Below, piece by piece: positions 11,225 to 14,281 of a DNA stretch of 36,804 bases. Under the pieces are notes generated by a model. That model was not told the origin of the DNA, did not search any database, and saw only the letters and a list, made by a program, of their open reading frames with translations. Origin of the DNA: Candidatus Nomurabacteria bacterium (lineage in GTDB: Bacteria > Patescibacteriota > Minisyncoccia > Phycocordibacterales > UBA9973). Made by a program: the position numbers and the translations under genes. The stretch's first letter is position 1. Each line of letters begins with the position of its first letter. Location of the stretch: the NCBI GenBank assembly GCA_020851595.1, contig JADZCK010000051.1:1-36804 (forward strand). The letters run 5' to 3'.

Positions 11225-11252
11225 TTGCATTATCTCATATATGAGATATACT
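11225..11252 (+). promoter_or_regulatory. Promoter with palindromic operator-like sequence for the HTH-MurA gene
   Basis: TTGCAT (11225-11230) - 16 nt - TATACT (11247-11252); 18-bp perfect palindrome TATCTCATATATGAGATA at 11231-11248; ATG at 11260. Confidence 0.6.
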
Positions 11253-11259
11253 TTTAGAC

Positions 11260-12789
11260 ATGAAAAAAACACAAAATAAAAATACGGAAACAGAACAGCA
11301 AAAGATAGGTTATTTTATAAAAGAACTTCGTGAACGGAGAGGAATGACTCAAGAAGAATTTGCTCGCGAACTAGGCACTTCTCAAAGCTCTGTACCAAGA
11401 ATGGAAAAAGGAGAACAAAATTTTACCACTGAACTTTTAGCAAAAATAAGTAATGTATTAGAACACAAAATAGTTTCTATAAAAGATTCTATCGATTTTC
11501 AAGTAAATGGCGGAAAAAAATTAAGTGGAACCATAAAAACAAATTTCTCAAAGAATGGATCTGTCGGGCTTCTTTGCGCTTCCCTTTTAAATAAAGGTAA
11601 AACAACTCTTCACGGCATAGCTCGCATAGAAGAAGTAAATAGAGTAATAGAAATATTGGAAAGTATTGGGGTGGAAGTAAAATGGCTAGACCACAATACC
11701 GTGCAGATAATTCCTCCAAAAGAATTTTCTATGGAAAAGATAAACGTGGAATCCTCTATCAAAACTCGCTCTGTGATAATGCTTATAGGCCCTTTGGCAC
11801 ACATCATGACTTCTTTCTCAATCCCTCATGCTCAAGGCTGCAAACTTGGTAAAAGGACTATCTCGGCTCACACCTACGCGCTTGAAGATTTAGGAATAAA
11901 AATAAAAACCACGAATTCTAGATACGAAATAAAAGTAAATAAATTAAAAGCTAGCGATATAGTAATGTATGAAGCTGGAGACACTGCTTGTGAAAATATT
12001 TTGACTGCTGTAGCCAAAATACAGGGCACTACGACGATAAGTTTTGCAAGCGCGAATTATATGGTGCAAGAGATATGTTTCTTTCTTGAAAAACTAGGGG
12101 TAAAAATAGAAGGTATTGGCACATCTACTTTGGTAGTACACGGAATTAAAGATATAGATACTGACGTCGAATATTGGAACAGCGAAGATCCGATCGAATC
12201 TATGATGTTTATATCTGCTTGCGTTATCACTGATTCCAAACTCACAATCACCAGATGCCCTATTGATTTCCTTTCTTTGGAGCTTGAAAAATTAAAAAGA
12301 ATGAACTTAAAATATAAAATTCTAAAAAGATATTATTCTTACAATGAGCGCACAAGATTAGTAGATATAGAAATACTGCCAAGCAAGCTAAAAGCGTTAG
12401 AAGATAAAATTCACGCACAACCATACCCAGGGATAAATATGGATAATCTACCCTTTTTTGTGCCAATCGCCATAAAAGCTGCGGGTCAAACTATAATCCA
12501 CGACTGGAGTTATGAAAATAGAGCTATTTATTTTGCAGAATTAAATAGACTGGGCGCAAATATTACCTTGGCTGATCCACACAGAGTATACATCCAAGGA
12601 GGAACGACACTCAAACCAGCTCAGATAGTATGCCCACCAGCTCTTCGCCCATCGATGATTATTCTTGTTTCAATGCTTGGAGCTACCGGAACTTCAATTC
12701 TGCGCAATGTATATATGATCAGTCGTGGATATGAAGAAATCGCTGAAAGACTCAACTCTATCGGCGCTGATATCAAGATTTTAAAATAA
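11260..12789 (+). CDS. UDP-N-acetylglucosamine 1-carboxyvinyltransferase-like protein with N-terminal XRE-type HTH domain
   Basis: N-term IGYFIKELRERRGMTQEEFARELGTSQSSVPRMEKGEQNFTTELLAKISNVL (XRE HTH), then EPSP-synthase fold: SKNGSVGLLCASLL (KN motif), IPHAQGCKLGKRTISAHTYAL (catalytic Cys loop). Confidence 0.88.
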   Translation: MKKTQNKNTETEQQKIGYFIKELRERRGMTQEEFARELGTSQSSVPRMEKGEQNFTTELLAKISNVLEHKIVSIKDSIDFQVNGGKKLSGTIKTNFSKNGSVGLLCASLLNKGKTTLHGIARIEEVNRVIEILESIGVEVKWLDHNTVQIIPPKEFSMEKINVESSIKTRSVIMLIGPLAHIMTSFSIPHAQGCKLGKRTISAHTYALEDLGIKIKTTNSRYEIKVNKLKASDIVMYEAGDTACENILTAVAKIQGTTTISFASANYMVQEICFFLEKLGVKIEGIGTSTLVVHGIKDIDTDVEYWNSEDPIESMMFISACVITDSKLTITRCPIDFLSLELEKLKRMNLKYKILKRYYSYNERTRLVDIEILPSKLKALEDKIHAQPYPGINMDNLPFFVPIAIKAAGQTIIHDWSYENRAIYFAELNRLGANITLADPHRVYIQGGTTLKPAQIVCPPALRPSMIILVSMLGATGTSILRNVYMISRGYEEIAERLNSIGADIKILK

Positions 12790-13659
12790 ATGCAAAAACA
12801 AAAAGTTATTGTAATACTAGGCCAAACTGCCACTGGCAAAAGCGACCTAGCAGTAAGAATAGCTAAGAAAATAAATGGCGAAATTATTTCTGCTGATTCT
12901 AGACAAGTTTACAAAAATCTTGATATTGGCACAGGTAAAATTACTAAAAAAGAAATGGGGGGTGTACCTCATCACCTGCTCGATGTCGCAAGTCCTAAGC
13001 ATAAATTTACAGTATCAGAATATAAAAAATTAGCAGAAGAGAAAATAAAAGAAATAATCTCACATGAAAAAACTCCTATTATCTGTGGAGGCACAGGACT
13101 ATACATCGATGCAATTACAAATGGTGTCATTTTTCCTGAAGTTCCACCAAATAATAAATTGAGAAAAATTTTAGAAAAGAAATCTGAAATAGAACTTTTT
13201 AAAATGTTACAAAAATTGGATTCTGAGAGATCTAGAACTATAGACAAAAATAACAAAGTAAGATTAATCAGAGCGATAGAGATAGCAAAGGCTTTGGGTA
13301 AAGTGCCTAAAATTACACAAGCGAAATCTACATATAAATTTATAAAAATTGGATTATTTTTACCAAAAGATTTATTGAAAAAGAAAGTAGAACTCAGAGT
13401 TAAAAAAATGTTTGATAAAAAAAATAAAGGAGGATTGCTTAATGAAATAAAAAAACTTAAAAAAACTGGTATTTCTAATAAAAGATTAAAAGAATTTGGT
13501 TTTGAATATTTTGAACCGACTTATGAAAAAGTAGTAGTAGAAACTCTCAAATATGCCAAACGCCAGATGACGTGGTTTAAAAGAGACAAAGAAATAAAAT
13601 GGTTTGACGCATCAAAAATTTCAGACAAAGAAATACTGGATTATTTGTATATATTGTGA
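12790..13659 (+). CDS. miaA: tRNA dimethylallyltransferase
   Basis: VILGQTATGKSDLAVRIAKKINGEIISADSRQVYKNLDIGTGKI, HHLLDV, GGTGLYIDAI, YAKRQMTWFKRD. Confidence 0.95.
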   Translation: MQKQKVIVILGQTATGKSDLAVRIAKKINGEIISADSRQVYKNLDIGTGKITKKEMGGVPHHLLDVASPKHKFTVSEYKKLAEEKIKEIISHEKTPIICGGTGLYIDAITNGVIFPEVPPNNKLRKILEKKSEIELFKMLQKLDSERSRTIDKNNKVRLIRAIEIAKALGKVPKITQAKSTYKFIKIGLFLPKDLLKKKVELRVKKMFDKKNKGGLLNEIKKLKKTGISNKRLKEFGFEYFEPTYEKVVVETLKYAKRQMTWFKRDKEIKWFDASKISDKEILDYLYIL

Positions 13660-14172: not shown

Positions 14173-14196
14173 GCCCCGAATATTCGGGGCTTTTTG
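14173..14196 (+). terminator. Rho-independent terminator after the orphan gene
   Basis: Perfect palindrome GCCCCGAATATTCGGGGC (14173-14190) followed by TTTTTG. Confidence 0.85.
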
Positions 14197-14210
14197 TTTA
14201 AAAAATCCTG

Positions 14211-14281
14211 CGGGCGATGAGGGAATCGGACCCCCGCCAGCGGTTTTGGAGACCGCTGTTCTACCACTAAACTAATCGCCC
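14211..14281 (-). tRNA. tRNA-Trp (anticodon CCA)
   Basis: Reverse complement GGGCGATTAGTTTAGTGGTAGAACAGCGGTCTCCAAAACCGCTGGCGGGGGTCCGATTCCCTCATCGCCCG; anticodon loop CTCCAAA; discriminator G. Confidence 0.93.

Follow-up and report, generated by a model that had tools for sequence, protein, structure and literature searches.

The locus examined here raises the question of whether an enzyme catalyzing the committed step toward peptidoglycan, fused to a DNA-binding domain, controls its own gene through a palindrome in that gene's promoter. It lies in a stretch of 36,804 nucleotides from a Candidatus Nomurabacteria bacterium (contig JADZCK010000051.1), called the window below.

HTH-MurA joins an XRE-type HTH to a MurA domain

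The gene and its downstream neighbor comprise the following features:

11260..12789, + strand: HTH-MurA fusion protein, 509 residues (Pfam, NCBIfam, AlphaFold, Foldseek)
11293..11460, + strand: HTH domain, modelled helices at residues 12-67 (HTH_3 at residues 20-67; model helices)
11377..11400, + strand: recognition helix TSQSSVPR, residues 40-47 (covariation of its residues with operator bases)
11500..12786, + strand: MurA catalytic domain, with KN (98-99) and the Cys194 loop (Pfam, active-site residues)
12790..13659, + strand: miaA, IPP transferase (Pfam IPPT, E 3.7e-57; junction sequence)

Pfam identifies an HTH_3 domain at residues 20-67 (E 2.6e-13), that is, an XRE-type HTH, followed by an EPSP_synthase domain at residues 82-498 (E 4.7e-38). 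The protein passes the NCBIfam MurA subfamily model PRK09369 (300.9 bits, cut-off 297) and scores 292.9 bits with TIGR01072, under the cut-off of 392.7. The MurA active-site positions are held by K98-N99, R170, C194, R199, H204, D395, E419/R421, R463 and R489. Across 18 HTH-MurA proteins the active-site Lys, Asn, Cys, Arg, His and Asp are invariant and align with 5ujs; the T, Q, S and R of the recognition helix are likewise invariant. The AlphaFold model (mean pLDDT 88.9) comprises four HTH helices (H12-26, H31-38, H44-49 and H57-67), a short linker and a MurA fold, with lower confidence for the linker (residues 68-77). The top Foldseek matches are MurA structures, with a TM-score of 0.89 on the target for 5ujs.

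HTH-murA is the sole EPSP/MurA-family gene of its source genome (0.73 Mb, 100% complete), which also encodes murC, murI, alr and ddl. HTH-MurA should thus be a working MurA; we consider this likely, the enzymatic activity being inferred from the sequence and from this gene content. The HTH-murA stop codon directly abuts the miaA start, and the two genes are probably co-transcribed.

A palindrome fills the promoter spacer of HTH-murA

The region upstream of the gene harbors three overlapping or adjoining elements:

11225..11230, + strand: -35-like element TTGCAT (sequence; TTGCAT or TTGCAA in most HTH-bearing genus orthologues)
11231..11248, no strand: operator palindrome TATCTCATATATGAGATA (perfect palindrome; conserved across HTH-murA loci)
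11247..11252, + strand: -10-like element TATACT, overlapping the operator (sequence; position before the ATG kept in the genus)

The 18 bp of TATCTCATATATGAGATA are complementary at 9 of 9 pairs and occupy the 16-nt spacer between TTGCAT and TATACT. The -35/-10 pair matches 9/12 in a promoter scan, and such matches are not enriched in the window. In the window the -10 element ends 7 nt 5' of the ATG at 11260, and in the genus this distance is 6-7 nt. With a -10 element so close to the start codon, the transcript is probably leaderless or near-leaderless, an inference from this distance. In 61 of 112 loci, the operator stops 8-11 nt short of the first in-frame ATG.

A reading of the locus from sequence alone (hereafter the sequence-only reading) had described the perfect 18-bp palindrome, its position in TTGCAT-N16-TATACT with overlap of the -10, and the ATG at 11260. 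It had also recognized an XRE-type HTH joined to an EPSP/MurA-type enzyme with the KN motif and the catalytic-Cys loop. Both descriptions held, the first as stated and the second by Pfam and active-site residues.

The palindrome was rejected as significant by itself, since perfect 18-bp palindromes occur three times in the window, where about 0.27 would be expected. A separate perfect palindrome, GCCCCGAATATTCGGGGC (14173-14190), lies near a tRNA-Trp gene (14210-14281, minus strand) and is possibly a terminator.

The operator is present where the HTH is present

We gathered orthologues from the genus and the order and inspected the upstream DNA of each. Two of 117 HTH-bearing loci were truncated by contig ends, leaving 115 with readable upstream DNA. 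An 18-bp site, TATxyCATATATGyxATA, was found upstream of all 115, versus 1 of 27 HTH-less murA genes (Fisher 1.4e-27); the HTH-less set includes 4 distant MurA (~30% identical). With a weight matrix of this operator, none of the 112 sites used to build it scores under 17 bits, and the highest-scoring of 128,616 coding positions stays under 6 bits.

A referee may object that the consensus was picked after the sequences had been seen, as it was; it still held on loci outside the building set. With the matrix unchanged and a threshold of 12 bits, loci from a different collection, absent from the first set, reached the threshold in 29 of 34 HTH-bearing cases versus 0 of 11 HTH-less ones. The five exceptions are two loci with weaker sites and three from Kaiserbacteria (L280, L287 and L291). 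These three keep an HTH whose recognition helix is degenerate, and their upstream DNA has no operator-like palindrome.

A search for the exact operator in 394 genomes of the order returned 58 sites, versus 0 for a reversed control pattern. Conservation, and not the palindrome alone, exceeds chance. This bears on whether the palindrome could have arisen by chance, or as a structural feature, in an AT-rich promoter. The three perfect palindromes in the window speak for that view; the excess over the control and the tie between conservation and HTH speak against it. The comparative data already refute this explanation, and we regard it as practically ruled out.

We counted changes of HTH state on a MurA tree of 47 rows: no fewer than 6 fall on well-supported branches, the best tree has 9, and the operator state tracks the HTH state. 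In genome G025 HTH-murA is separated from the operator by a histidine-phosphatase-like gene, and it is this new first gene that the operator precedes; in G029 the operator and HTH-murA are split by a contig break. The HTH-less murA of G238 (L151) still has the operator, and a search of G238 for a stand-alone HTH replacing the lost one found no close one; a recent loss of the HTH is possible. Beyond the order, few members of the class (G536, G657 and G587) have an alignable HTH.

In four genus members (L048-L051), the same position behind tRNA-Leu is taken by a distant MurA (~30% identity). The shared position suggests that murA may have been replaced in situ.

The recognition helix covaries with the operator half-site

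Base 5 of the half-site goes with helix residue x, which follows the first Thr of T-x-Q-S. At least one AGC-type half-site is present in 50 of 50 loci with Thr at x, versus 5 of 65 loci without it (Fisher 3e-27). Pagel's likelihood test, run on a tree from which the helix columns had been left out, supports the association of helix Thr with the AGC half-site (LR 41, p 2.5e-8), although the tree rests on only ~130 columns. We turned to this test because the well-supported branches yielded no more than 2-3 pairs for an independent-pairs sign test, putting significance out of reach. Helices of the SS[VI]P type go with a TATCTC half-site in 12 of 12 cases, among them L100 of a distant family.

Since the operator is kept or absent with the HTH and covaries with its helix, the HTH is very likely its binder, and HTH-MurA very likely binds its own operator; this is shown by comparison only, without binding data. 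Alternatively, a different regulator could bind the palindrome, the HTH of HTH-MurA being unrelated. In favor of this, G238 and G252 have the operator without a detectable HTH-MurA-type HTH. However, a different regulator would predict neither the joint absence of HTH and operator nor covariation of the operator with HTH-MurA's own recognition helix, and we hold this explanation to be very improbable.

The sequence-only reading had proposed that the palindrome be sought in orthologous promoters and compared with recognition-helix residues. It was conserved in the former and covaried with the latter, and it was absent when the HTH was absent, bar the single HTH-less gene noted above. With these comparative checks all passed, autoregulation is strongly supported.

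Other operator sites suggest a small regulon in some lineages

Some lineages have operator sites at further envelope genes, murC among them, which the sequence-only reading had overlooked. The exact operator occurs upstream of murC in G116 and G252, and with one mismatch in G219. HTH-MurA was searched for in G252 and not found. In family f82 (L158, L159, L197, L198 and L201) the operator lies directly upstream of murC. We rejected murC as a general target, the site being confined to this family among 30 murC loci.

An exact operator also precedes a gene for a beta-lactamase-fold serine hydrolase in G043 and G127 (L153, L154), the hydrolase being followed in G043/L154 by a MurC/Mpl-type Mur ligase. 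A further exact operator precedes a 60-75-residue membrane-like protein (MKILRaIGLGlAIIxLRxLMPevfHafE...) without a Pfam family (loci L152, L155-L157, L160-L162, L164, L167-L172 and L184). This small protein has the operator upstream in 7 of 11 HTH-MurA genomes versus 0 of 19 others (p 1.6e-4). The comparison is partly circular, the profile having been derived from operator-associated copies. G051 has two copies, with a site before each. The protein was looked for in the window's genome and not found. From these sites we infer a small cell-wall regulon (murC, serine hydrolase, small membrane-like protein) in some lineages.

A large regulon in the window's genome was rejected: near-matches other than the self site are at about the level of control patterns, and the self site alone is strong. 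The best of them, TCTATCATATATGATATA (C15:6063, equal to L143:1564-1581), scores 18 and lies directly behind the murI stop; 0.1-0.2 such sites are expected by chance. In G148 (L165), an exact operator-like site was observed upstream of a signal-peptidase-like gene, and no HTH-MurA was found in that genome.

The position of the sites bears on whether HTH-MurA might activate transcription instead of repressing it. At L155 and L156 the small-protein gene has a TTGACA-like -35 that closely follows the site, an arrangement compatible with an activator. Against this, the murA operator in most loci takes up the spacer between -35 and -10 and extends into the -10 itself. We consider activation unlikely.

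Proposed mechanism

We propose that HTH-MurA is an autorepressing MurA "trigger enzyme" of Paceibacteria. The reading as a whole appears likely, in the absence of binding, expression or enzyme data, and its steps differ in strength. The two-fold symmetry of the site leads us to infer dimeric, sequence-specific DNA binding, in which two HTH domains would bind the two half-sites and cover the -35 and -10 elements. Protein on the operator would block RNA polymerase, and enough free HTH-MurA would shut down HTH-murA and the downstream miaA. The committed step of peptidoglycan synthesis would then be under negative autoregulation. HTH-MurA may, in some families, also control murC, the serine hydrolase/Mur-ligase operon or the small membrane-like protein. 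Self-repression of HTH-MurA/miaA had been put forward by the sequence-only reading. Repression is probable, but it is inferred from the overlap of the operator with the core promoter, a position that suggests and does not prove it, and no expression data support it.

In the last step, UDP-GlcNAc, PEP or the feedback inhibitor UDP-MurNAc on the MurA domain would alter DNA binding, as in BirA and PutA; feedback inhibition of MurA would make UDP-MurNAc a natural candidate signal. That the ligand state of the MurA domain gates DNA binding is inferred only, without data, and we would not favor it over its negation. The earlier claim that the enzyme senses its substrate or occupancy is neither supported nor refuted and remains an inference.

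The main rival contests this ligand step alone and is otherwise a sub-case of our explanation: HTH-MurA may be a plain autorepressor that holds the amount of enzyme constant, its MurA domain sensing nothing. In its favor, the self site alone is strong in the window's genome, and simple negative autoregulation requires no ligand. The lower model confidence of the linker (68-77) further means that coupling between the HTH and MurA domains need not exist. Against it, fusion to an enzyme instead of a separate repressor favors some sensing of the pathway, as do additional targets in the same pathway (murC). The evidence leaves this rival and ligand gating evenly balanced.

A bolder version of the trigger-enzyme reading would give HTH-MurA, in Parcubacteria, the role of a master regulator over peptidoglycan synthesis, gated by metabolites. 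The ligand state of the MurA active site would then set binding at murA, murC, the serine-hydrolase/Mur-ligase operon and the small-membrane-protein gene, and the uncharacterised small membrane protein may itself act on the envelope. We put this forward tentatively, as it is rather more doubtful than the reading above.

Comparison with known systems

In the literature searched, we found no description of a MurA with a DNA-binding domain, nor of a transcriptional regulator of cell-wall synthesis in Patescibacteria (CPR). Control of Enterococcus MurA is described as acting on enzyme activity (PMC12077105), and Gram-negative MurA is subject to feedback inhibition by UDP-MurNAc, with a dormant complex in crystals (PMC12077105). 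Under the proposed mechanism, a large group of tiny, uncultured bacteria would have the committed-step enzyme and its regulator in a single protein, and the fold targeted by fosfomycin could act as a sensor domain. More than 110 operators, discrete specificity classes and repeated absences provide natural controls. Binding, specificity and metabolite gating are testable with synthetic DNA and one protein, with no need of culture.

Canonical MurA shares with HTH-MurA the fold, the KN motif, the catalytic Cys and the other active-site residues. HTH-MurA differs by the extra N-terminal HTH of about 75 residues and by an AQGC loop where 5ujs has GGC. BoxR (PRK08154) similarly fuses an XRE-type HTH to a metabolic-enzyme fold, here a shikimate-kinase-like domain, and its model weakly matches the HTH region of HTH-MurA. 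The enzyme fold and pathway of BoxR are different; in HTH-MurA the enzyme domain keeps its active site and is the sole copy.

The trigger-enzyme criterion, an enzyme and a DNA-binding domain in one chain with operators in its own pathway, is met by sequence and comparison only. The closest analogues are BirA and PutA, enzymes that repress the genes of their own pathway (PMC6978683). PutA, the proline dehydrogenase and put repressor, likewise combines enzyme and transcriptional repressor in one polypeptide (PMC6978683). It differs from HTH-MurA in its ribbon-helix-helix DNA-binding domain and catabolic pathway. BirA, the E. coli biotin ligase and bio operon repressor, is an essential biosynthetic enzyme with a DNA-binding domain and own-pathway repression (PMC6978683), the combination proposed for HTH-MurA. 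Ligand-driven dimerisation is established for BirA, whereas for HTH-MurA it is merely inferred. The HTH of BirA is of a different type and its target is the bio operon, whereas the main target of HTH-MurA is its own gene.
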